A DNA stretch of 64,000 nt from Halobaculum sp. XH14 (GTDB taxonomy: Archaea > Halobacteriota > Halobacteria > Halobacteriales > Haloferacaceae), in the NCBI RefSeq assembly GCF_032116555.1, contig NZ_CP134949.1, positions 2,046,001-2,110,000 of the forward strand. The letters run 5' to 3'. The notes under the pieces were generated by a model that was given only the letters and a program-made list of their open reading frames with translations, had not been told where the DNA came from and searched no databases. The position numbers and the translations under genes were made by a program. Every line of letters begins with the position of its first letter. Positions within the stretch are counted from its first letter, which is position 1. This document shows, piece after piece, positions 19,093 to 30,993 of this stretch.

Positions 19093-19108
19093 TTTTGGCA
19101 AACCTAAA
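19093..19108. promoter_or_regulatory. Putative iron-regulator operator 1
   Basis: TTTTGGCAAACCTAAA differs at one base from TTTAGG-N4-CCTAAA. It lies immediately after the adk stop and 32 bases before the GT2 start, and touches the likely TATA element (AAACTATCAA, about 29 bases before the ATG). DtxR-type repressors bind closely related TTAGG...CCTAA palindromes; haloarchaeal SirR/Idr proteins belong to that family. Confidence 0.6.
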
Positions 19109-19139: not shown

Positions 19140-19943
19140 ATGAACACGAACGCGGCAACCGAGGCCGGTTCCCGGACCGGGGCCGGACACGGAGACGACG
19201 TCGACGCGACCGGTCCCGTCGAGGGAACGCCCCGAGTCGACGGGGCGACCGGCGGCGACGAGTACACGTTCGACGACCTGAGCGTGGTCATGGGCACCTA
19301 CAACGAGGAGGCGGCCATCGAGCACGTGCTGGACGACGTCGACGCCGTCACCGACGGCCGGGCCGAGGTCGTCTGCGTCGACGGCTCCGACGACCGGACG
19401 CCCGACATCGCCCGCGAGCACGGCGCACGGGTCATCGAGCAGGAGCCGCGGGGCTACGGCGTCGCGGTCGAGGCGGCGCTCTCGGCCGCCGAGCGACCGG
19501 TCGTCGTCACCACCGACTGCGACGACACGTACCCGATGGAGGAACTTCCGTCGTTCCTCGCCGCGATCAACGACGGAGCGGACGTCGTCAGCGGCGACCG
19601 CCTCTACTGGGGGGCAGCCGAGATGCCGGCGCTGAACCGGCTCGGCAACCACGCGTTCGCCGCGCTGGCGAGCGTCCTCGCCGGCGAGCGCGTCCACGAC
19701 ACCACCACCGGCATGCGAGCCTACCGCCGCGAGGTGATCGAGGCCATCGACTGGACCGAGAACACGGGGCTCTCGGCGGAACTGCTCGTCCGGCCGCTGA
19801 TGCGCGGCTACGAGGTGACCGAGCGACCGATCCCCTACGACGAGCGCCGCGGCGAGACGAAACTGGATCCGTTCGCCGGCGGCGCGGCCATCGGGAAGTC
19901 CATCCTGACGGTGTGTCTCGAGGAGCGACTCCGACGGTTCTGA
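19140..19943 (+). CDS. GT2 glycosyltransferase (dolichol-phosphate mannosyltransferase-like)
   Basis: A 267-residue protein. The first 40 residues are a disordered Gly/Thr/Asp leader. The GT-A domain then shows LSVVMGTYNEEAAI (47-60), CVDGSDDRTPDIAREHGA (79-96) and the metal motif TTDCDDTYPMEELP (124-137), followed by GDRLYWGAAEMP and TGMRAYRREVI. No membrane helix is obvious, so it is probably a cytoplasmic polyprenyl-phosphate sugar transferase. The operator just upstream suggests iron-responsive expression. It converges with the GMC oxidoreductase gene. Confidence 0.82.
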   Translation: MNTNAATEAGSRTGAGHGDDVDATGPVEGTPRVDGATGGDEYTFDDLSVVMGTYNEEAAIEHVLDDVDAVTDGRAEVVCVDGSDDRTPDIAREHGARVIEQEPRGYGVAVEAALSAAERPVVVTTDCDDTYPMEELPSFLAAINDGADVVSGDRLYWGAAEMPALNRLGNHAFAALASVLAGERVHDTTTGMRAYRREVIEAIDWTENTGLSAELLVRPLMRGYEVTERPIPYDERRGETKLDPFAGGAAIGKSILTVCLEERLRRF

Positions 19944-19972: not shown

Positions 19973-21649
19973 CTACGACAGTTCCGCGTCCAGATCGTCC
20001 GCGACCCGGAGCGCCAGCGCCGCGATGGTGAGCGTCGGGTTCATCGCGCCGCTCGTGACGAACGCGCCCGAGGACGGGAGCCAGCAGTTCTCCAGGTCGT
20101 GAGTCCTGAGCCGCGGCGTCACCACGCTCCCGTCGGGGTCGGTTCCCATCCGCGTCGTCCCCATGTGGTGGAACGCGGGACCGGTGCTGTCGGGGCCGAC
20201 GGTCCACCGGACGTCGACCCCGAGTTCCGACAGGACGGCGTGCTGGATCTCGTTGGCCCGTTCGAGCGTCCGCCTCGTTCGGTCGTCGAGCGACCAGCGT
20301 ATCTTCGGCACCGGGTTGCCGTGGTCGTCGGTCCGCGAGGGGTCGAGCTCGATCCGGTTCTCCGCGCGCGGAAGCTGTCCGACCAGCCCGCCCATGGCGA
20401 CGTGGGTGCCGTACGAATCGCGGAGGGTCCCCAGCAGGTCGTCGCCCCACTCCTCGGCCGAGAGCGCCATCTCGACGGGCGAGGGGCCGGCGTAGTTCAG
20501 GAACTCCAGCTTGATGGGGCCCAGATCACCGTCGGCGGGTGGAATCGAGCCGGCCGTCCCGGACGCGCCGGCCCCCGGTCGGTCGTAGAACTGGTGGGAC
20601 TCGCTGGTGAGAAAGCCGACGTGGTTCTGCCGGGTCGGCTCGTCGAGCACCCCGCCGGCGCCCGCGAACAGGTGGTCCATGAAGTAGCGGCCGACCAGCC
20701 CCGAGGAGTTCGCCAGGCCGTCCGGATGCCGGGCCGACTCCGAGAGCAACAGCAGTCGCGCCGTCTCCACCCCGCCGCAGGCGACGACGAACTGGCGGGC
20801 CTCCTGCCGATGCTCCGTCCCGTCCGGCGTCGCGTACACCGCCGCTTCGACGCGGTCGCCGGACTCGTCGTGTTCGAGCCGCTGGACGGGCACCCGGGTC
20901 AGCAACCGCGCGCCGGCCTCCTCCGCCCGCTCGACGTGGCGCTCGGCGCTGTACTTCGCCCCCGAGGGACAGACCGGTTTGCAGGTTCCGTAGCCGACGC
21001 AGGCCGAGTCGTCCCCCCGCGACTCGGAGAGCCGGGCGTTCGGCACCGAGTGTGTCGCCACCCCCAGCCGCTCGCACGCCTCGGCGAACAGCGAGTCGCT
21101 GTAGGACGGCGGGAACGCGGGCAGGTCGTACGGCTCCTCGCGCGGCGGCGCGAACGGGTTGTCGGCCGCGCCCGAGACGCCGAGCGCCCCCTCCGCGGCC
21201 GCGTAGTACGGCCGCAGGTCCTCGTAGTCGATGGGCCAGTCGGCGGCGACGCCGTCGCGCGTCCGCCGTCTGAAGTCCGACTCGTGGAGCCGCATCACCA
21301 TCCCCTGCCAGTGGAGCGTCGACCCGCCGACGCCCTTCACCCGGGCGGCGTTCAGCGGGTAGTGCCGGTCCCCGCCGGTCGTGTACGCGTCGCGCTCGCC
21401 GCCCATCTCCCAGACGGAGTCGGGTCCGTACGCCGGCCTGATGTCGCGCTCCATCCGCTCGGTTCTGTCGCCATCGAATCGTTCGCCGGCCTCGAGCACG
21501 ACGACGTCGTGGCCCGCCCCGGTGAGCCGGTGTGCGACGAGCGCGCCCGCGGGGCCGCTGCCGACGACGCAGACGTCCACGCGCCCGCTCGGCGTCCGGT
21601 CGGCGTCGGCGGACGCGGCCGGGTCGTCACCGTCCGTTGACTCACGCAT
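19973..21649 (-). CDS. GMC oxidoreductase, gluconate/glucose dehydrogenase alpha-subunit type
   Basis: A 558-residue protein starting MRESTDGDDPA. The FAD motif VVGSGPAGALVAHRL is near residue 30, VKGVGGSTLHWQG near 105, and the terminal substrate/FAD domain holds FHHMGTTRMGTDP and SSGAFVTSGAMNPTLT. A C-x5-C-x3-C cluster (CVGYGTCKPVCPSG) is typical of FAD glucose/gluconate dehydrogenases that hold a 3Fe-4S centre. It oxidises a sugar or sugar acid, passing electrons onward. It has no signal of its own but follows a Tat-signalled small subunit (eight-base overlap), suggesting hitchhiker export. No cytochrome subunit is adjacent. Confidence 0.82.
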   Translation of the reverse strand: MRESTDGDDPAASADADRTPSGRVDVCVVGSGPAGALVAHRLTGAGHDVVVLEAGERFDGDRTERMERDIRPAYGPDSVWEMGGERDAYTTGGDRHYPLNAARVKGVGGSTLHWQGMVMRLHESDFRRRTRDGVAADWPIDYEDLRPYYAAAEGALGVSGAADNPFAPPREEPYDLPAFPPSYSDSLFAEACERLGVATHSVPNARLSESRGDDSACVGYGTCKPVCPSGAKYSAERHVERAEEAGARLLTRVPVQRLEHDESGDRVEAAVYATPDGTEHRQEARQFVVACGGVETARLLLLSESARHPDGLANSSGLVGRYFMDHLFAGAGGVLDEPTRQNHVGFLTSESHQFYDRPGAGASGTAGSIPPADGDLGPIKLEFLNYAGPSPVEMALSAEEWGDDLLGTLRDSYGTHVAMGGLVGQLPRAENRIELDPSRTDDHGNPVPKIRWSLDDRTRRTLERANEIQHAVLSELGVDVRWTVGPDSTGPAFHHMGTTRMGTDPDGSVVTPRLRTHDLENCWLPSSGAFVTSGAMNPTLTIAALALRVADDLDAELS

Positions 21650-22265
21650 CGTCGGTCCCCGCGGGCGTCCTCGTGCCGGGGTCCGATCCGGTCGTGTCGT
21701 CGGTCCCACCGCCGGTGTCGGCGGCGGCGTCCCCGTTCGTCGGCGGTTGCCGGTAGCTCACCGTCCCGCCGGGGAACCCCTGCGGGTTCTCGATACCGAC
21801 GAGCTCGCCGCCGGTCGGCGTGGTGTAGAGCGCGTACAGCAGTTCGTTGACGAGGAAGTGCCGGACGCGTTCGGGGTCGTCGCCGTCCGGAACCGGGTCG
21901 GCCGTGTCGACGGCCATCTCTCGGAGGTGGGCGTCGCGGGCCGCCGGGTCGAGGTCGGCGAAGCGCGCGTCGCGCCACGCCTCGGCGTACTCGTCCAGCG
22001 TCTCGACCGCGTCGGCGACGCCCTCGCGGTGGTTCGGTCGGTCCCGGACCCTGCCGACGCAGTACGTCTCCACGAACTCGGGCACCCCCGATACCGTACT
22101 CGGGTAGACCGTGCGTGCGACCGCCACGAGCGCCTCCCGCTCCGCGGGCGTGAACCGTCCCTCCGTCGCCTCGCCGTCTCCCCACTCGAGCCCCGCACAG
22201 CCCCCGGCGACCGCCGCACCACCGGCGGCCAGCGCCGCGAGCGCGTCACGACGGCTCAGCTGCAT
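21642..22265 (-). CDS. Gluconate 2-dehydrogenase subunit 3 family protein, Tat-exported
   Basis: A 207-residue protein with an N-terminal SRRDAL twin-arginine motif, an alanine/glycine hydrophobic core and a GGCAG lipobox-like end, so it is probably a Tat lipoprotein. The mature part has FTPAEREALVAVARTVYPS and FLVNELLYALYTTPTGG, matching the gamma (subunit 3) family of membrane-bound gluconate/glucose dehydrogenases, which chaperones and exports the flavin subunit. The C-terminus is a disordered Thr/Gly/Asp tail. An operator-like palindrome lies ten bases upstream, over the promoter. Confidence 0.8.
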   Translation of the reverse strand: MQLSRRDALAALAAGGAAVAGGCAGLEWGDGEATEGRFTPAEREALVAVARTVYPSTVSGVPEFVETYCVGRVRDRPNHREGVADAVETLDEYAEAWRDARFADLDPAARDAHLREMAVDTADPVPDGDDPERVRHFLVNELLYALYTTPTGGELVGIENPQGFPGGTVSYRQPPTNGDAAADTGGGTDDTTGSDPGTRTPAGTDDA

Positions 22266-22274
22266 GGCCGACGG

Positions 22275-22290
22275 GTTAGGGTAGCCTAAA
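22275..22290. promoter_or_regulatory. Putative iron-regulator operator 2
   Basis: GTTAGGGTAGCCTAAA is one base off TTTAGG-N4-CCTAAA. It sits 10-25 bases upstream of the gluconate-dehydrogenase subunit 3 start and overlaps the expected TATA position on the minus strand, which would allow repression. Confidence 0.65.
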
Positions 22291-22337: not shown

Positions 22338-24641
22338 TCAGCCGGTCCGGTCCGGGGCCGTCCGGTCCGACGCCGTCGGGTCCGACGCAGCGGAGTTCGA
22401 GGCCGTCCCGTTCGGCGCCGTCCCGTCGATCGTCGTCCCGTTCGACGCGGACAGGGCAAGTTCGACGGAGACGCCGTCGGCCGCCGCCTCGGGGACGTAG
22501 GCCGCCTCGCCGCCACAGAGTCGCGGCGTGGTGCAGACCTCCGCGTACGGCGTCAGCGCCCGGACCTCCTCGTCGTCGAGGAGGACGGGCACGTCGAGCC
22601 GGTAGCTGAACGCGCCAGTCCCGCCCGTGCTGACGTACACCACGAGTTCGAGCGTCTCGCGGCCGGTGACCGGAACTGCGGTGTCGTTACCGACGGGGGC
22701 GACCGCCCCGTCCACGGTCGCGCGCCCCGCGGCGACCGTCAGCGACAGCGGGAGCGAGGACGGCGTGCAGTTCGCCGCGTACAGCGCGCTCCCTTCCTCG
22801 CTCCGGAGCCGGAGCGACACCGACTGCGCGTTCGCCGGGACCCCGAGCGTCGCGTTGAGCCGAACTTTCCCGCCCGAGACGTGCCGGACCCGCTGGATGC
22901 GCGGCTCGACGGTCACGCCGGCGGTCGGGGCCCAGTCGCCGCGGTAGGTGTACCGATGCACGGTCCGCTCCGGGAAGGCATCGACGACGGCGAACTGCTT
23001 CTCCCGGAGCGCGTACACCGCGTCGCCGTCGTAGTCGGGGTCGTTCCGCAGCGCCTGGAACGGGTGGTTGAGCCAGTCGCCGTAGGGGGTGGGGAGGAAC
23101 ACGAGCGCGTCCTCGAACGACCGGTCCACGAACGGTTCGTACGCCTCCTCGTAGGCGGCGGTGACCTCGGCGTTGCGGTCGATCGGCCCGCCCAGGGCCG
23201 TCGCCGCCGGAACCGCGAACGCCGCCGCGCTGAGCACCGTGACGGCGGCGAGGACGGCGGCCGCGCGCGACTCGGAGGACGCCCGGTCGCGCACGTACCC
23301 CGGGAGCCGTCGACCGAGGATGACCAGCGCGTGGGCGGCGAACAGCCCGGTCGGGACGAGCAGGTCGAAGTGGTAGTACGGTCCGAGCCCCGCGATCAGC
23401 CCGTCGCCCGGCGCGGTCAGGTTCCCGAGGACGTTGAAGTTCCCCCAGAAGAAGACGTTTCCGAGCGGGACGGAGACGGCGAGCCCCGCGAGCGCGACCT
23501 GTCGAGAATCGACGCGGTCGATGCCGGTTCCGCCTGCGATCCGGGCACCCAGGTCACTGCCGGCGGCGGAGCCGACCGCACGCGCGCCGAACAGACCCAG
23601 TCCGATCGCGGCGAGCAGCGTTCCCGCACGACCCCCGGCGACCCAGTCGGTGAGGAACGCGGCGAGCACGCGCGCGTTCGCCTCCAGCGCGAGTTCCGGC
23701 GTGTACTGAACCTCGTGGCCGAGGATCTCTCGGTGCCCGAAGCCCAGGCCGTCCGCGGGAGCGAACGCGACGTACGGGAACACCAGCGGGTCGCCCGTGA
23801 GGACGGCGTTGTACGCGAGCGCGGCCGCGACGCCGCCACAGCCGAGCGCCGCGGTGACGAGGTTCCGGGAGAGCGCGCCCCGGTCGAGTTCGCTGACGAA
23901 CTCCCCGCGGTCGAACCCGTCCGCGGCGAGGCCCCGAACCGTCGACCCCGAACCGAGGATGCGCCACCCGGCGTGGGCGACGAACGGCGCGGCGAACAGC
24001 GTCGCCGTGTACGGCCGGGAGAAGAACGCGACGCCGACGGCGACGCCGGCGAGCGCGGCCCACCACGCGCTCCCGGTTCGGTCGGCCCGGAGGTACGCCA
24101 ACGCGAACAGCAGGTTCCAGAGCGTCGTCGCGGCGTACGGGAGGAACACGCCCGACTGGACGACGAACAGCGGGGAGGCCAGAACGAACGCGGCCGCGAG
24201 GACCCCGTGGCGGGCGTCGAACGCCTCCCGCACCGTCAGGTGGGTCAGGCCGACGACCGCCGCGGCGATGCCGACGAGCGCGACCTGCGGCCCGCCGAGC
24301 AGCGTGCCGCCGGCGAACATCGCGGCCGGGACTGGCGCGTACTTCGGGTACAGCGTCGCCGCGTCGGTCTCGACGAAGAACCACGGCCGGAACGGGTCGA
24401 CGACCGGCGGGTCGAGGACGAGTTGCCCCTCGAGCAGCATCGCCGCCTGCTGGAGGTAGACGGCCTCGTCGTGGTTCGACGAGTGGTACGGAAACAGGCC
24501 GGTCGCGACGAGCGCGGCGACCAGTGCCCCGGCAACCATCAGGAGAACGGCGACCGCGTCGGCCCGCGTCGCCCCCTCCACCGCCCGGCGGCGCGCCGTT
24601 CGGAGGCGCCGTCGGACCGCGTACACGAAGCCACCCGTCAT
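22338..24641 (-). CDS. GT39-like polytopic membrane glycosyltransferase
   Basis: A 767-residue protein. After a basic cytoplasmic N-terminus and a first helix comes FPYHSSNHDEAVYLQQAAML, where the acidic pair in the first external loop is the hallmark of PMT/ArnT-type (GT39/GT83) enzymes using polyprenyl-phosphate sugars. About ten more helices span to about 470. The last 300 residues are beta-rich and extracytoplasmic, and end in six degenerate five-residue repeats (T-I-D-G-T, A-P-N-G-T, A-S-N-S-A, A-S-D-P-T, A-S-D-R-T, A-P-D-R-T) with N-x-T sequons. The start overlaps the ABC ATPase stop (ATGA), so it is the last gene of the iron-transport operon. Confidence 0.78.
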   Translation of the reverse strand: MTGGFVYAVRRRLRTARRRAVEGATRADAVAVLLMVAGALVAALVATGLFPYHSSNHDEAVYLQQAAMLLEGQLVLDPPVVDPFRPWFFVETDAATLYPKYAPVPAAMFAGGTLLGGPQVALVGIAAAVVGLTHLTVREAFDARHGVLAAAFVLASPLFVVQSGVFLPYAATTLWNLLFALAYLRADRTGSAWWAALAGVAVGVAFFSRPYTATLFAAPFVAHAGWRILGSGSTVRGLAADGFDRGEFVSELDRGALSRNLVTAALGCGGVAAALAYNAVLTGDPLVFPYVAFAPADGLGFGHREILGHEVQYTPELALEANARVLAAFLTDWVAGGRAGTLLAAIGLGLFGARAVGSAAGSDLGARIAGGTGIDRVDSRQVALAGLAVSVPLGNVFFWGNFNVLGNLTAPGDGLIAGLGPYYHFDLLVPTGLFAAHALVILGRRLPGYVRDRASSESRAAAVLAAVTVLSAAAFAVPAATALGGPIDRNAEVTAAYEEAYEPFVDRSFEDALVFLPTPYGDWLNHPFQALRNDPDYDGDAVYALREKQFAVVDAFPERTVHRYTYRGDWAPTAGVTVEPRIQRVRHVSGGKVRLNATLGVPANAQSVSLRLRSEEGSALYAANCTPSSLPLSLTVAAGRATVDGAVAPVGNDTAVPVTGRETLELVVYVSTGGTGAFSYRLDVPVLLDDEEVRALTPYAEVCTTPRLCGGEAAYVPEAAADGVSVELALSASNGTTIDGTAPNGTASNSAASDPTASDRTAPDRTG

Positions 24642-25870
24642 TCCGCAACGCCGTCGGCGGCCGGATACCAGGCGAGCGTGTGATCGGCCACGAGCTCGAC
24701 GGTCACCCGCCGGTCCAACGCGAACTCGGTCGCGTGGTTGTGTTCACACCTGACGACCCGACCGCCGTCGAGTTCGACGTCGTAGACGAACGACGGGCCC
24801 GTGTACGTCCGGCCGACGATGACGCCGTCGCCGTCGCCCCCGGCCGGGACCGCCTCGAGGTCGTCGGGACGAACGAGCACGTCGACGTCGGCCCCGTCGT
24901 AGTCGGGGGTGAGTCCCTGAAGCAGCTCCTCGTCGAGCGTGCCCAGCGCGGTCTCGACGCTTCCGCCCTCGAAGCGGCCGGGCAGGAAGCTGGCCTGACC
25001 GATGAACTCCGCGACGAACCGCGACTCGGGGTGTTCGAACACGGCTTCGGGCCGCCCAACCTGCTGGAGCGTCCCGTCGTGCATGACGGCGACGCGGTCG
25101 GAGATGCTCAGCGCCTCCTCCTGGTCGTGGGTCACCGAGACGGCCGTGACGCCCGCCTCCTTCAGGATCCGTCGCACGTCCTCGCGCATCCGCACCCTGA
25201 GCCGCACGTCGAGGTTGGAGAACGGCTCGTCGAGCAGCAGCACGTCGGGTTCGGGCGCGAGCGAGCGCGCCAGCGCGACGCGCTGGCGCTGGCCGCCCGA
25301 GAGCGTGTCGGGCGACTGGTCCGCGTACTCGGTCAGGCCGACGAGCTCGAGCAGATCGGCGACCCGCGCTTCGGTCTCGCCGTCGTCGGCGTCCTGCAGG
25401 CCGAAGGCGACGTTCTCGGCGACCGAGAGGTGGGGGAACAGCGCGAACTCCTGGAACACCATGCCGACGTCGCGGTCCTCGGGGTCGGTCACGACGCCCT
25501 CGCCCGCGACCGTCTCGTCGGCCACGACGACCACGCCGTCGGTCGGGGCCGCCAGCCCGGCGATCATGCGGAGCGTCGTCGTCTTTCCGCAGCCGGACGG
25601 CCCCAGCAGGGTGAGCAGTTCGCCGTCCCTGACGGTCAGGTTCAGCCCGTCGACGGCCGTCTCCGTGCCGTACTCCTTCCGGACGCCCTCCAGCCGGAGC
25701 ACCGGCTCGGCGTCGTCGTACGGTCCCCGCGGGGGGTCCTCGGCCGTTTCCGAGCCGCCCGCGGCGCCGGCGGGTGGTCCCTCGCCCGATCCGGCGTCCG
25801 CGTCGTCGTGGCCATCGCTGGTCCCCGTCGTCCCGCCCGCCGTCACCTCGTCGAGCGTCCTTTCAGCCAT
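24638..25870 (-). CDS. ABC transporter ATPase, Fe(III)/thiamine type (FbpC-like)
   Basis: A 410-residue protein. An acidic, Gly-rich leader of about 55 residues precedes the nucleotide-binding domain: Walker A GPSGCGKTT (near 93-101), Q-loop FQEFALFPHL, signature LSGGQRQRVALARSL, Walker B LLLDEPFSNLD and the switch His in VTHDQEE. The C-terminal half holds TOBE-like beta segments (VLVRPDDLEAV, VGRTYTGPSFVYDVEL). It powers the adjacent permease. Its stop overlaps the GT39-like start by four bases, and its start overlaps the permease stop. Confidence 0.88.
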   Translation of the reverse strand: MAERTLDEVTAGGTTGTSDGHDDADAGSGEGPPAGAAGGSETAEDPPRGPYDDAEPVLRLEGVRKEYGTETAVDGLNLTVRDGELLTLLGPSGCGKTTTLRMIAGLAAPTDGVVVVADETVAGEGVVTDPEDRDVGMVFQEFALFPHLSVAENVAFGLQDADDGETEARVADLLELVGLTEYADQSPDTLSGGQRQRVALARSLAPEPDVLLLDEPFSNLDVRLRVRMREDVRRILKEAGVTAVSVTHDQEEALSISDRVAVMHDGTLQQVGRPEAVFEHPESRFVAEFIGQASFLPGRFEGGSVETALGTLDEELLQGLTPDYDGADVDVLVRPDDLEAVPAGGDGDGVIVGRTYTGPSFVYDVELDGGRVVRCEHNHATEFALDRRVTVELVADHTLAWYPAADGVAE

Positions 25871-27497
25871 CGGTCCCCTCCTGGCGCAACAGGAGCACCA
25901 TCGACAGGCCGGAGACGGCCACCAGCACGAGCGCCGGCAGCGCGGCCCGGCCGTAGTAGCCGGCCTCCTGAACTCGCCAGATGTACGTCACGAGCGTTGT
26001 AAATCCTGTCGGATGGAGGATGAGCGTCGCCGGCAGCTCCTTCATCGTGGTGAGAAACACCAGCGCGGCCCCCGCGACGAGCCCCGGCGTGATCAGCGGC
26101 AGCGTCACGCGGCGGAACGCGCCGCGCGGCGGCTCGCCGAGCGTCCGCGCCGCACCCAGAAGGTCCCCGTCGACGCCGAGCACCGACGAGCGGGTGGTGC
26201 CGACCGCCTGCGGGAGAAAGCGGACGACGTACGCGAACACGAGCAGCGGGAGCGTCTGGTAGAGCCCCGGCGCGTAGCTGGTTCCGAAAAACACCAGCGC
26301 GAGCGCGAGCACGACGCCCGGCATCGCGTAACCGACGTACGTCGAGCGCTCCGAGAGCCGTGCGGCGAGCGAGTCCGAGCGTCCGGCGTAGTAGGCGATC
26401 GGCAGCGCCAGCACCACGGTCACGAGGGCCGCGAGCAGCGACGCCGACACCGAGTTCAGCCCGAACGCCCAGTCGAACGCGATGCCGCCGCCGGCGTAGC
26501 CCGGGCCGCTCCGGAGCAGCCACATCGCCAGGATGCCGACCGGGAGCGCGAGCGTGAAGGTCGCAACCGTCGCGGGGAACAGCATCGCGGGCCAGCGGAG
26601 CCGACCCAGTTCGATGACAGTCGAGGACGACGCGGCCGACCCGTAGCCGTCGGACTCCTCGGGGCCGATCCGGGATTCGAGCGCGAGGACGAACGCGGTG
26701 ACACAGAGCAGTTCCAGCGCGAGCACCGTCGCCCGCGCCTGCCCGAACGCGCCGAGTTCGACGTAGATGACGCGCGTGAACACGTCGTACTGCATGATCG
26801 CCGGCGTCCCGAAGTCCGAGAGCGCGTACAGCGCGACCAGCAGCGCCCCCGCGGTCACTCCCGGGGCGATCTGTGGCAACACCACGCGACGGAACGCCGA
26901 GCGGTAGCGGTGGTTCAGCGTCCGTGCCGCCTCGAGTTGCGTCGTGTCGAACGACAGCAGCGACGCCCGCGTCGTGAGGAACACGTAGGGGTAGACGAAC
27001 AGCGTGAGGACCAGCACCGCTCCCTCGAGCCCGTAGATGGTCGGAATCCGGACGCCCAGCGGCGCGAGCAGGTCCGCGAGCGCCCCGCGCGGGCCGAACG
27101 CCGAGACGTACGCGAACGCTCCGAGGTAGCTCGGCACGACGAGGGGGAGCGCGGCGACGACGGTCCAGAACCGGCCGAACGGCAGGTCAGTCTGGACCGT
27201 GAGGACCGCCAGCGGGACCCCCAGCGCGAGCGACCCGCCGGTGACGAGCGCGACGACCAGCAGGCTGTTCACCAGCACCTCGACCGCGGTGGGTGACGTC
27301 GCCAGACCGACGGCCTCGACGAGCCCCACGTCGGCGGCCCTGAGAACGAGCCAGAGCACCGGCGAGACGACGGCGGCCGCGACCGCGACGGCCGCGGCGG
27401 CGAGGAGGAGGCCGGCGGCGTCGCCGTCCGCAGCCTCCCGGGCTCGCCGGGTCAGGGTCCCCCCGACCCCCGCCGCATCGTCGCCCCCGGAGGCCAT
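25863..27497 (-). CDS. ABC transporter permease, Fe(III) type (FbpB-like, fused double domain)
   Basis: A 544-residue permease with about 12 membrane segments arranged as two MetI-like halves. Each half has an EAA loop: EAARTLNHRYRSAFRRVVLP in the first and GAARTLGEPPRGAFRRVTLP in the second. The fused arrangement is typical of FbpB/ThiP-type importers. FLTTMKELPATLILHPTGF near the end is characteristic of ferric-iron members. The start overlaps the binding-protein stop by one base, so the importer is tightly coupled. Confidence 0.88.
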   Translation of the reverse strand: MASGGDDAAGVGGTLTRRAREAADGDAAGLLLAAAAVAVAAAVVSPVLWLVLRAADVGLVEAVGLATSPTAVEVLVNSLLVVALVTGGSLALGVPLAVLTVQTDLPFGRFWTVVAALPLVVPSYLGAFAYVSAFGPRGALADLLAPLGVRIPTIYGLEGAVLVLTLFVYPYVFLTTRASLLSFDTTQLEAARTLNHRYRSAFRRVVLPQIAPGVTAGALLVALYALSDFGTPAIMQYDVFTRVIYVELGAFGQARATVLALELLCVTAFVLALESRIGPEESDGYGSAASSSTVIELGRLRWPAMLFPATVATFTLALPVGILAMWLLRSGPGYAGGGIAFDWAFGLNSVSASLLAALVTVVLALPIAYYAGRSDSLAARLSERSTYVGYAMPGVVLALALVFFGTSYAPGLYQTLPLLVFAYVVRFLPQAVGTTRSSVLGVDGDLLGAARTLGEPPRGAFRRVTLPLITPGLVAGAALVFLTTMKELPATLILHPTGFTTLVTYIWRVQEAGYYGRAALPALVLVAVSGLSMVLLLRQEGTDG

Positions 27498-28633
27498 CAG
27501 AGCACGCCGGTCTCGCGGAGCAGTTCCAGCGTCGGCTGGACGTCCGAGAGTTCGGTCAGGTCCAGGTCCGGCGGGTTCAGTTCGTCGATGGTCGGGAGCC
27601 CGCCGACCGGCGGGATCCCCGGAATCATCGGGTAGCCGTACGTCCGTGTGGCGAAGAACTCCTGGGCCTCCGCCGAGAGCAGGTGGCGGATGAACGTTTG
27701 CGCCAGGTCACCGTTGTCGCTCGGCGCGAGCTGTGCGGCGCCGGCGACGTTGATGAGCGCGCCAGCGTCGCCGCTCGTGAACGCGAGGTCGAGCGGTGCG
27801 TCCGGCCTGCTCGCCCGCACCCGGAGCGCGTAGTAGTGGTTCGCGAAGCCGGCGGCGATCTCGCCCTCCGCGACCGCGTTCGAGACGAGGAACTCGTCCG
27901 GGTACTCCGTGATCCCGGCGTCGAGCATCCCGTTCAGCCACTCGCGCGTCGGCTCCTCGCCCTCGATGACCCGCATCGCGGTGACGAACGCCTGGAAGGC
28001 GCCGTAGGTCGGCCCCCAGCCCATCGCGTCCTGCAGCGGCGACGCGCCCGGGAAGTCCATGACCGTCTCCGGGATGTCGTCGGACGAGAGCGCATCCGTG
28101 TTGTACGGCACCGCGCGTGCGCGGCCGGCCGTGCCGACCCACTGGCCGTTCGGGTGGAACGTCTCCGGAACGGGCTCGACGACCTCCGAGGGGAGTTCCG
28201 CGGTGAGGCCCTCGTCGGCGACCGCGCCGAGCGAGCCGGCGTCGACCGACCAGAACACGTCGGCGGGCGTCGACTCGCCCTCGGTGATGATCGTGTTCGC
28301 GCCCTCCGCCGCGCCGTAGCCGCGGATCCGCCCGGTGAAGTCTGGGTAGATGTTCTCCAGCAGCGTCACGAGGTCGCGGTAGAGGCCGCCCTCGCCCCCG
28401 CCGAGGTAGATGTCGAGTTCGCCGCTCAGCTCCGGCAGGTCGGAGAGTCGCGTTCCCTCCAGCGGCGGGCGCGACTCGACGAGCGGGCCGGAGCCGCGGA
28501 AGTCCGAGAAGGCGACGTTCCGCGAGGGCGTCCGCGAACTGCCGAACTGACAGCCCGCCAGCCCCGCGGTGCCGGCGGCCCCCACCGCCGCGAGGAAGCG
28601 CCGCCTGCTCCGTGATCCGTCGGTGTCGGTCAT
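27497..28633 (-). CDS. Fe(III)-type ABC transporter substrate-binding lipoprotein
   Basis: A 378-residue protein starting MTDTDGSRSRRRFLAAVG, with a twin-arginine signal (SRRRFLAAV) ending in a LAGC lipobox, so it is a Tat-exported lipoprotein. The mature part, with LDIYLGGGEGGLYRDLVTLL, GESTPADVFWSVDAGSLGAV and AVPYNTDAL, matches the FbpA/IdiA iron-binding family. An ATG 25 codons upstream in frame would bury the signal and is rejected. An operator-like palindrome lies seven bases upstream. It delivers substrate, probably ferric iron, to the permease/ATPase encoded next. Confidence 0.88.
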   Translation of the reverse strand: MTDTDGSRSRRRFLAAVGAAGTAGLAGCQFGSSRTPSRNVAFSDFRGSGPLVESRPPLEGTRLSDLPELSGELDIYLGGGEGGLYRDLVTLLENIYPDFTGRIRGYGAAEGANTIITEGESTPADVFWSVDAGSLGAVADEGLTAELPSEVVEPVPETFHPNGQWVGTAGRARAVPYNTDALSSDDIPETVMDFPGASPLQDAMGWGPTYGAFQAFVTAMRVIEGEEPTREWLNGMLDAGITEYPDEFLVSNAVAEGEIAAGFANHYYALRVRASRPDAPLDLAFTSGDAGALINVAGAAQLAPSDNGDLAQTFIRHLLSAEAQEFFATRTYGYPMIPGIPPVGGLPTIDELNPPDLDLTELSDVQPTLELLRETGVL

Positions 28634-28639
28634 CGTCGA

Positions 28640-28655
28640 ATTTGGTTCGCCTAAA
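28640..28655. promoter_or_regulatory. Putative iron-regulator operator 3
   Basis: ATTTGGTTCGCCTAAA keeps the full right half-site (CCTAAA) and has two mismatches in the left half of TTTAGG-N4-CCTAAA. It is placed 7-22 bases upstream of the iron-binding protein start, next to a TTAA-containing TATA candidate at about 28658-28662. Confidence 0.5.
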
Positions 28656-28700: not shown

Positions 28701-29945
28701 TCAGTCATCGGCGGTCACCACCCGCGTCCGCTCGACGGTCGAGAGCGCGTCCAGGCAGTCGAGCCAGTCGCGCATGTACTCGCCACAGTGGTTCAGGAAC
28801 GCGCCGTTGGCGTACTCGCTCCAGTCGCCGGTCGCCAGGCGGTCGGCCATCGCATCGAAGACGGCCGCGTACTCGTCGGCGTCGGCGACAGCGTCGGCCC
28901 GTCCCTCGCTCGCGTCGACTCCCGCGGGGGAGACGTCGTCGACGATCTCCCAGAGGTGCTCGTTCAGTTCGAGCCCCGGCACCTCGTCGTTGAGGTCGTC
29001 GAACGTCGGTCGCGGCGCCTTGTTGTGCTCACAGAGCGGGCCGCCGGTGACGACGTCGTCCCCGAGCAGGTCCGCCGCGCGCTTGAGGAACACGCCCGAC
29101 CAGATGTCGTCGAACCGGCCGACGTCCCACTCGTTGTCGTCCATCGGGAGCTGGTAGAACGCCGGGACGACCTCCCGGCGGAACGCGAGGTTCATCGAGC
29201 AGACCGTGAGGTACTGACCCGGCGCGGCGACGAAGTCCGCCTCGAAGTCCTCGGCGGTCGTCCTGGTCTCGGCCTGTCCCCGCAGGTCGCCGTCCATCAG
29301 GATGCGGACCGCGTCGAGGTCGGGCACGTTGGTCCACAGGCCCTGCGAGGCGACGACGCTATCGACCTGGGCTGTGCCCGTCTCGACCGTCTCGTCCATC
29401 GCTGCGTAGGGGTAGCCGCGCGGGTAGAGCCCGTGTTCGTCGGCGTTCTCGTGGAGCACGTTGACCCAGTTCTCGTCCGAGCGGACCTCGGTGAGTTCGC
29501 CCTCGTACTCGAGGGTCGCCAGGTGCTCGCCGAAGAAGTCCTGGTCGGAGTGGGGGAGCGTGTCGTCGTCGATGAAGACGCCGAGGTCGAACTCGTTCGC
29601 CCAGAGGTACAGCAGGCCGAAGGAGGTCTGGGCGTGGCTGGCGGCCGGGACGAGGTGCTCGAACTCGTCCACGTCGTGGTCGGCGAGCCACTGTTCGCGG
29701 CCGTTGCCGTCGAACACCGCGCCCGAGACGCCTTCCTCCCGGAGCATCGCCCGCATCTCGTCAACGTCACAGAAGTCCTCGGTGACGAGGACGACGTGCA
29801 GGCGGTCGAGGTCGAAGCCGTGCTCGCGGGCGTTCTCGAAGTAGGCTCGCATGCACTCGTACTCGCGGATCGTCGGGACGACGACGCAGACGTCCGGTCG
29901 CTCGCCGCCGGGCGCTTCCGTCGATTCGGTCGTCTCGGTAACCAT
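28701..29945 (-). CDS. RGP/GT75-like protein (alpha-1,4-glucan-protein synthase / UDP-sugar mutase type)
   Basis: A 414-residue protein. The core begins DVCVVVPTIREYECMRAY; FIDDDTLPHSDQDFFGEH at about 124-141 provides the Asp-rich metal/nucleotide-sugar motif, and AFRREVVPAFYQLPMDDNEWDVGRFDDIWSG follows. This matches the reversibly glycosylated polypeptide family, whose plant members are UDP-arabinopyranose mutases. Haloarchaeal copies are annotated as alpha-1,4-glucan-protein synthase. It probably processes a nucleotide sugar for surface glycans. Two operator-like palindromes lie upstream; the iron importer genes follow 67 bases downstream on the same strand. Confidence 0.8.
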   Translation of the reverse strand: MVTETTESTEAPGGERPDVCVVVPTIREYECMRAYFENAREHGFDLDRLHVVLVTEDFCDVDEMRAMLREEGVSGAVFDGNGREQWLADHDVDEFEHLVPAASHAQTSFGLLYLWANEFDLGVFIDDDTLPHSDQDFFGEHLATLEYEGELTEVRSDENWVNVLHENADEHGLYPRGYPYAAMDETVETGTAQVDSVVASQGLWTNVPDLDAVRILMDGDLRGQAETRTTAEDFEADFVAAPGQYLTVCSMNLAFRREVVPAFYQLPMDDNEWDVGRFDDIWSGVFLKRAADLLGDDVVTGGPLCEHNKAPRPTFDDLNDEVPGLELNEHLWEIVDDVSPAGVDASEGRADAVADADEYAAVFDAMADRLATGDWSEYANGAFLNHCGEYMRDWLDCLDALSTVERTRVVTADD

Positions 29946-29964: not shown

Positions 29965-29980
29965 TTTAGGTTGTCCTAAA
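29965..29980. promoter_or_regulatory. Putative iron-regulator operator 4 (perfect palindrome)
   Basis: TTTAGG-TTGT-CCTAAA is the perfect form of the motif, 20 bases upstream of the RGP-like gene. Its centre is 27 bases from operator 5. Confidence 0.72.
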
Positions 29981-29991
29981 GTCTGTCGTTT

Positions 29992-30007
29992 ATTAGGTAG
30001 TCCTAAA
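29992..30007. promoter_or_regulatory. Putative iron-regulator operator 5
   Basis: ATTAGGTAGTCCTAAA has one mismatch and forms a tandem pair with operator 4. The AATAAA/TTATT stretch between the two (about 29988-29995) could be the TATA box of the minus-strand RGP-like gene, so binding would occlude it. Confidence 0.65.
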
Positions 30008-30090: not shown

Positions 30091-30993
30091 ATGGCACGTA
30101 TCGAATCGCGCGTCCGGGACCTCGCGGAGGACCCGGAGATGCGCGAGGCCATCGAACTCGTCCTCGAGCGCGCGGAGGACGGGGAGGTGCAGTGGGTGGA
30201 CGTGCGCGATGAGATCTCCAGCGGCGAGTGGGGTCGGCTGATCGAACGCGGCATCCTGGAGGACGGCGAGGCGGGCTTCGCGCTCGCGGACCGGGAGGCC
30301 ATCGAGGCGGGGCTCGAATCCGAGGGCGGCGACTCCGACATCCCCGAGGTCCCCGACGCCGAGGGGTCGTCCTGGAGCAAGTGGGACAAGGGCGCGGCCG
30401 GCGTCACCGTCCTGTTCTTCATCGGCTACTCCTACGGGCCGGTCAGGGACATCATCGGGGGCGGCATGGACGTCCTCCTCGGGCCGCTCCAGGAATCGCT
30501 CCCGCTGTACGCGGTCATCATGGTCATCGCGACGCTGACGGGGCTCTACTCGACGCTCCTGCGTGCGAACCTGATGGACATGGACCGCATGGCGGCCTAC
30601 CAGGAGCGGATGCAGGACATCCAGAGCCGGATGAAGGACGCCCGCAGCCGCGGTGACGACGACGCGGTCGACCGCATCCAGGAGGAGCAGATGGACGCGA
30701 TGGGCGACCAGCTCGGCATGTTCAAGGAGCAGTTCCGCCCGATGGTCTGGATCATGGTGTTCACCATTCCGTTCTTCCTCTGGCTCTACTGGAAGGTCGG
30801 CTTCCGCGGCGCGAGCGGCGACCCGACGGCGGAGTTCGCCAACGTGGTCCTCCCGCTCGCGGGCGAGGTGGCATGGACGGACAGCCTGCTCATCATGCCG
30901 ACCTGGATCATCTGGTACTTCCTCTGCTCGATGGCGTTCACGCAGATCATCCAGAAGGGGCTGAACATCCAGATGAGCCCGACTACTTCCTAG
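30091..30993 (+). CDS. DUF106 membrane protein (EMC3/YidC-Oxa1 superfamily)
   Basis: A 300-residue protein. The soluble N-terminal part (MARIESRVRDLAEDPEMREA through EGGDSDIPEV) carries a small helical domain. A first helix (GVTVLFFIGYSYGPV), a hydrophobic pair around LPLYAVIMVIATLTGLYSTLL, a cytoplasmic coiled coil rich in Met/Arg (MDRMAAYQERMQDIQSRMKD) and two further helices follow. This is the archaeal Oxa1-superfamily organisation (DUF106, related to EMC3, GET1 and YidC), a membrane-protein insertase. It matches the usual partner of adk and secY in archaea, but here is separated from adk. Confidence 0.85.
   Translation: MARIESRVRDLAEDPEMREAIELVLERAEDGEVQWVDVRDEISSGEWGRLIERGILEDGEAGFALADREAIEAGLESEGGDSDIPEVPDAEGSSWSKWDKGAAGVTVLFFIGYSYGPVRDIIGGGMDVLLGPLQESLPLYAVIMVIATLTGLYSTLLRANLMDMDRMAAYQERMQDIQSRMKDARSRGDDDAVDRIQEEQMDAMGDQLGMFKEQFRPMVWIMVFTIPFFLWLYWKVGFRGASGDPTAEFANVVLPLAGEVAWTDSLLIMPTWIIWYFLCSMAFTQIIQKGLNIQMSPTTS

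Follow-up and report, generated by a model that had tools for sequence, protein, structure and literature searches.

The window, by which we mean the whole 64,000-nucleotide stretch of DNA analysed, covers positions 2046001 to 2110000 of contig C1 in G000, the organism's own haloarchaeal genome. It contains a leftward operon headed by a gene for a protein resembling reversibly glycosylated polypeptides (RGP), a pair of palindromic operators upstream of that gene, and further operator copies ahead of other genes in the block. The features, from right to left, are:

29992 to 30007, minus strand: distal operator ATTAGGTAGTCCTAAA, with a perfect 14-bp TTAGGN4CCTAA core
29975 to 29994, minus strand: predicted core promoter, with a BRE-like AAACGAC in the spacer between the operators and a TATA region running into the proximal operator
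29965 to 29980, minus strand: proximal operator TTTAGGTTGTCCTAAA, with a perfect TTAGGN4CCTAA core
28701 to 29945, minus strand: RGP-like gene (PF03214, GT75), with DDD at residues 126-128, Arg176, and Asp280
28641 to 28654, minus strand: internal operator with one mismatch, 7 bp before the likely real start of the next gene
27497 to 28633, minus strand: FbpA-type ferric-binding lipoprotein (substrate-binding protein, SBP) with an HYY motif; the ATG at 28633 is a predicted start
25863 to 27497, minus strand: ABC permease with two BPD_transp_1 stretches
24638 to 25870, minus strand: ABC ATPase with a TOBE domain
22338 to 24641, minus strand: PMT_2/DUF7846 membrane protein, a predicted GT39-like glycosyltransferase
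22276 to 22289, minus strand: single perfect operator before the gluconate-2-dehydrogenase-subunit-3/GMC pair
21642 to 22265, minus strand: gluconate 2-dehydrogenase subunit 3 family protein
19973 to 21652, minus strand: GMC oxidoreductase
19140 to 19943, plus strand: family 2 glycosyltransferase (GT2, PF00535)
19094 to 19107, plus strand: operator with one mismatch, before the GT2 gene

The tandem pair is confirmed. As the preliminary description had claimed, two palindromes lie 27 bp apart centre to centre, at 29965-29980 and 29992-30007, and both cores are perfect; the end of the proximal 14-bp core is 20 bp from the RGP start codon. The pair had also been called the strongest operator of the block, and by sequence it is the best one. 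It had been placed at the left edge of the island, but the operon extends to the left of 29945, which puts the pair at its upstream, right-hand edge. Within the operon, the SBP open reading frame is listed from 28708; the gene probably begins 75 bp further on, at 28633, as indicated by its conserved promoter and operator.

In the window there are three matches to the 16-mer with up to three mismatches, compared with 0.03 expected, and five to the 14-bp core with up to one mismatch (0.07 expected). Fifteen perfect cores are present in the whole G000 genome. With up to one mismatch allowed, 34 cores are counted and the reversed control gives 22; copies with one mismatch are therefore weak evidence on their own and need other support. 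Over 118 relatives, TTTAGGN4CCTAAA occurs 762 times and its reversed control 9 times. Pairs of perfect cores with 6 to 36 bases between them were found in 138 of 246 genomes (reversed control, 0), the commonest spacing genome-wide being 36 bp (45 of 75 pairs among the matches listed). An additional class at 20 to 21 bp was seen in relatives of group f17 (10 of 75 pairs among the matches listed); close to two full helical turns, it is a better candidate for same-face cooperation than the 27-bp arrangement.

The earlier reading of the pair as an iron operator is supported, in that it looks like a DtxR-type site. Work on IdeR of Saccharopolyspora erythraea put forward a 14-bp one-dimer site, TTAGGNNNNCCTAA, as a new definition of the IdeR/DtxR target in place of the 19-bp two-dimer box (PMC8464063), and both window cores match this consensus letter for letter. 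In the classical bacterial 19-bp box two dimers occupy overlapping sites, whereas the window has two separate sites 27 bp apart and, unlike the bacterial box, these lie at a predicted archaeal BRE/TATA promoter. Other copies in G000 precede genes for FhuD-like lipoproteins, DpsA-like, ferredoxin-like, and ZIP-like proteins, and FAD oxidoreductases. These names are assumed from N-terminal sequences. The perfect sites at C1:1044403 and C1:1772063 and several one-mismatch sites in G000 have no recognised iron gene beside them.

The haloarchaeal FerR/Idr/TroR iron regulon has in common with this locus its occurrence in haloarchaea, regulators of the DtxR family, and targets in iron uptake; it is said to have been treated by Leyn and Rodionov in 2015, Schmid in 2011, and Martinez-Pastor in 2024. 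The recurrence of the same operator at other iron genes of G000, named from their N-termini, agrees with such a regulon. The operator type is known, and it is possible that the RGP operon has already been listed in FerR, TroR, or Idr regulons. Some members of the DtxR family sense manganese and G000 has two regulators of this type, which would allow the sites to answer manganese or another metal in place of iron; however, many of the operator-bearing genes are iron-like (FhuD-type SBPs, DpsA-like, ferredoxin-like, and the FbpA-type SBP), making this reading quite improbable.

Two G000 proteins, of 243 and 144 aa, have both DtxR domains (PF01325 and PF02742), and the longer of them also carries FeoA. 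The name SirR has been given to a haloarchaeal DtxR protein with FeoA (PMC11218638). Each type is matched in 117 of 118 relatives, counts that include cross-matches between both types. In the four genomes of f2/g29, which are small and incomplete, nothing matches the 144-aa type closely and there are no sites; G018 also has no close match, yet has five sites. Directly before the start of the gene for the 243-aa protein lies the palindrome GATTAGTGGAGTCTAATC (L016:1902-1919, on C1 of G000), which may be a site for autoregulation with a different type of half-site. Elsewhere on C1 (L035, positions 28866-28895), two adjacent TTAG...CTAA palindromes 16 bp apart are followed by an ATG and may belong to another regulator.

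To follow the operator across RGP loci, we took in 90 of 92 long RGP matches (G056, with an in-frame stop, and G060, which is split, were left out), and the 170 loci were reduced to 149 by dropping 21 that were more than 95% identical. A proximal operator with up to one mismatch stands beside the RGP start at 147 of the 149 non-redundant haloarchaeal loci (0.48 in shuffles), supporting the earlier assignment of the operator to the RGP-like gene. These proximal operators comprise 132 perfect copies and 15 with one mismatch, and they are present at all 80 named RGP loci. Each of the two loci without an operator holds a second copy of RGP, behind which no SBP was found. Locus L078, with a proximal operator and no SBP in its flank, lies outside the 146-locus comparisons of SBP, promoter, tree, and residues. 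The internal SBP operator was found at 120 of 146 loci.

We also considered the divergent EMC3/TMCO1 gene at 30091 as the target, given that the pair sits in the intergenic region common to it and the RGP-like gene. EMC3 matches lie near RGP at only 2 of 170 loci, which belong to a single genus (the flanks covered measured about 1.5 kb at 90 loci and up to 6 kb at the other 80), while the operator is present at 147 of 149 RGP loci. Control of EMC3 was therefore rejected as a most remote prospect.

On comparison of these loci, the distal site is optional and, where present, nearly always 26 to 29 bp away. A second site with up to two mismatches lies at this distance at 30 of 147 loci, and all other spacings from 15 to 89 bp together account for four occurrences, giving a fixed spacing in 30 of 34 second-site occurrences; in 500 shuffles a partner at 26 to 29 bp was found 0.13 times on average and at most twice. 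The distal site could be a neutral or redundant duplicate, leaving regulation to the proximal site only, and 117 of 147 loci indeed do without it. Against this stand the recurrent spacing and the 15 changes of distal-site presence or absence on the RGP tree, and we consider such redundancy unlikely. Tandem pairs seemed to be anticorrelated with the internal SBP operator (14 with and 16 without it, compared with 108 and 8 for the rest; Fisher p of 5e-8), and tandem pairs compared with the presence of an adjacent permease gave a raw p of 0.0004. After pairing on the tree the median p values were 0.5 and 0.69, respectively, and neither association is claimed.

The position of the core promoter was examined with a BRE/TATA matrix built from 122 SBP promoters. 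These promoters have the order GAACCG, TATAA, operator, with the start codon 4 to 8 bp further on in 101 of 120. The best match lies at -24 at SBP genes and at -17/-16 in 98 of 146 RGP promoters (22 of 146 when shuffled), that is, 7 to 8 bp nearer the operator. In the window the matrix matches best at -15, with a score of 8.5 versus 2.4 at the next place; this is also the commonest position in shuffled promoters (27 of 146), the operator itself partly fitting the matrix, so the window's own TATA position is a prediction. The RGP TATA thus appears to overlap the proximal operator, with the operator just downstream of TATA at SBP genes, and the end of the distal operator would fall at the BRE or inside it.

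The preliminary description had proposed a TATA candidate between the sites and two dimers bracketing the RGP promoter. The AT-rich stretch exists, as TAATAAA, but it partly belongs to the distal operator and otherwise adjoins it, and it lacks conservation, the position reading CCGAACC in single-site relatives; its role as TATA is not borne out. By comparison of promoters, the core promoter begins immediately before the proximal operator and continues into it. In favour of bracketing, 36-bp-class pairs appear to enclose a BRE/TATA region and a 26-bp pair elsewhere in G000 has CTATATAC between its sites, with its best matrix match at -23. At RGP promoters, however, the matrix places TATA at the operator edge, TAATAAA as TATA would entail a longer leader (an estimated 15 to 17 nt), and 27 bp, with 10.5 bp to each helical turn, amounts to about 2.6 turns, so that the dimers would not share a face. 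We regard a bracketed TAATAAA as distinctly unlikely, and same-face cooperation of dimers at 27 bp is not indicated by phase.

Spacing and promoter position may be related. In pairs of the 36-bp class (about 3.4 turns) before FhuD-like genes of G000, the proximal site lies near the start codon. Among seven G000 pairs at 34 to 37 bp the best match falls at -27 to -24 in four; of the remaining three, two have -24 as the second-best place and one has neither. The scores were low. The difference between 36 and 27-29 bp is about that of the 7- to 8-bp matrix shift, suggesting that the core promoter sets the spacing. The 26-bp pair of G000 (C1:1615191 and 1615217, in L022, extending to 1615230) has two mismatches in its second site and a clear TATA in its spacer, so that short spacing need not mean TATA overlap. 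By eye, it precedes a possible small open reading frame, and a separate operator stands before the neighbouring DpsA-like gene.

A TATA region overlapping the proximal operator would give the RGP-like gene a nearly leaderless start, which fits the 72% of protein-coding transcripts reported to be leaderless in Hfx. volcanii (PMC4983044). MDR1 of Archaeoglobus fulgidus is likewise an archaeal metal-dependent repressor at the core promoter; it is described as blocking polymerase while TBP/TFB stay (PMC2995911), whereas at RGP the prediction is that the proximal site overlaps TATA itself.

The genes under these operators combine iron uptake with putative sugar metabolism. The SBP has an HYY motif in 146 of 146 loci, and we take its tyrosine pair to have the role familiar from FbpA-type SBPs. 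It is related to ferric-binding proteins (7w3w, E 3.5e-54), consistent with an FbpA-type ferric-binding lipoprotein on the basis of this sequence relation and the tyrosine pair. The RGP-like protein matches profile PF03214 with 56 bits (cut-off 23.8), and the profile search gave no NCBIfam match. Its residues 97-399 align to PDB chains 7yua and 7xpr (7yua, E 1.9e-25). Chains of the 7yua type were taken to be MtdL because Arg159 and Asp260, hand-counted in the alignment, fall at the acceptor arginine and catalytic aspartate of MtdL described in PMC9937993. The GT75 NDP-pyranose mutases treated there (MtdL and plant RGP/UAM) share with the RGP-like protein the DDD motif, acceptor arginine, and catalytic aspartate, all of which are invariant in 146 of 146 loci, and by sequence the protein is a GT75 mutase homologue that keeps its catalytic residues. 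Unlike those mutases, the haloarchaeal RGP group heads an iron-uptake operon. Literature searches returned no reported activity for the haloarchaeal RGP group, and among the papers listed by full-text searches none seemed to deal with a link of RGP or GT75 to archaea, haloarchaea, or iron in this sense.

RGP is present in 90 of 118 relatives (G000 included). Strong DUF7846 matches occur in the same 90 genomes, always within 12 kb of RGP; the DUF7846 match in G097 is no more than weak (E 9e-5). A GT2 orthologue (at least 66% identity) is found in 89 of the 90 RGP genomes and in none of the other 28, where GT2 is represented by distant paralogues only (best E 5.5e-32). The RGP, DUF7846, and GT2 genes have one distribution, in 89 to 90 of 118 genomes, part of which is due to physical linkage. 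In 33 of 89 genomes GT2 and RGP are not found within 15 kb of each other on the same contig. An operator upstream of GT2, with up to one mismatch and no more than 300 bases from where the alignment starts, was present in 40 of 40 genomes examined (of the 89), including 14 of 14 with GT2 at a distance. RGP, SBP, and DUF7846 occur together at 79 of 80 named loci, the last being cut by a contig end. The full order SBP-permease-ATPase-DUF7846 is found at 35 of these 80, and at 34 nothing matching the permease or ATPase of the window lies between SBP and DUF7846. An ABC transporter is often present; the core of the unit, on this evidence, appears to be formed by the sugar enzymes together with the ferric-binding lipoprotein.

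The surroundings vary at some loci. In L257, as judged by eye, a GMC-like open reading frame reaches its end shortly before GT2, and DUF7846 is convergent. In L143 (4854-5984), an LPG_synthase_TM membrane protein (PF03706), presumably of the UPF0104 type, is encoded directly before RGP and has its own operator; proteins with similar N-termini are found in L151 and L159. In iron-starved Hfx. volcanii, FhuD-type proteins and a UPF0104 protein were up, the latter 11.6-fold, according to PMC11349517, whose Table 1 contains, judged by names only, no RGP-like name among the 19 most affected proteins.

We consider it likely that the pair serves as an operator at which two dimers of a metal-loaded DtxR-family repressor bind, with promoter occlusion that is relieved when iron falls. 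The repressor would come from the FerR/Idr/TroR group of haloarchaea. When iron is present, one dimer would occupy the proximal palindrome, overlapping the RGP TATA region, and a second the distal palindrome, abutting or overlapping the BRE, and the bound dimers would exclude TBP/TFB and polymerase. When iron falls, the dimers would leave, and a nearly leaderless transcript would start just before the ATG at 29945, encoding the GT75 mutase homologue, the ferric-binding lipoprotein, the ABC transporter, and the PMT-like glycosyltransferase. The copies at 28641 (SBP), 22276 (GMC pair), and 19094 (GT2) would give the same response. The operon can thus be read as a putative iron-repressed module for glycosylation plus uptake.

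A more specific and tentative proposal, which we hold possible but somewhat less probable than its contrary, is an iron-repressed glycosylation pathway for which the tandem operator would be the master switch. The GT75 enzyme would make a furanose nucleotide sugar, GT2 would load a lipid carrier, and the PMT-like enzyme would modify the ferric-binding lipoprotein or the cell surface, with the GMC/gluconate-dehydrogenase pair possibly oxidising the sugar to an iron-binding acid. If true, the glycan would take part in catching ferric iron.

The spacing comparison suggests that archaeal core-promoter geometry, not helical phase, may set the positions of paired repressors. Less expected is that sugar enzymes found across the order share their operator with a ferric-binding lipoprotein, and this suggests that haloarchaea alter a sugar coating when iron runs low. 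The vague archaeal name "reversibly glycosylated polypeptide" would thereby gain a testable role in iron acquisition.
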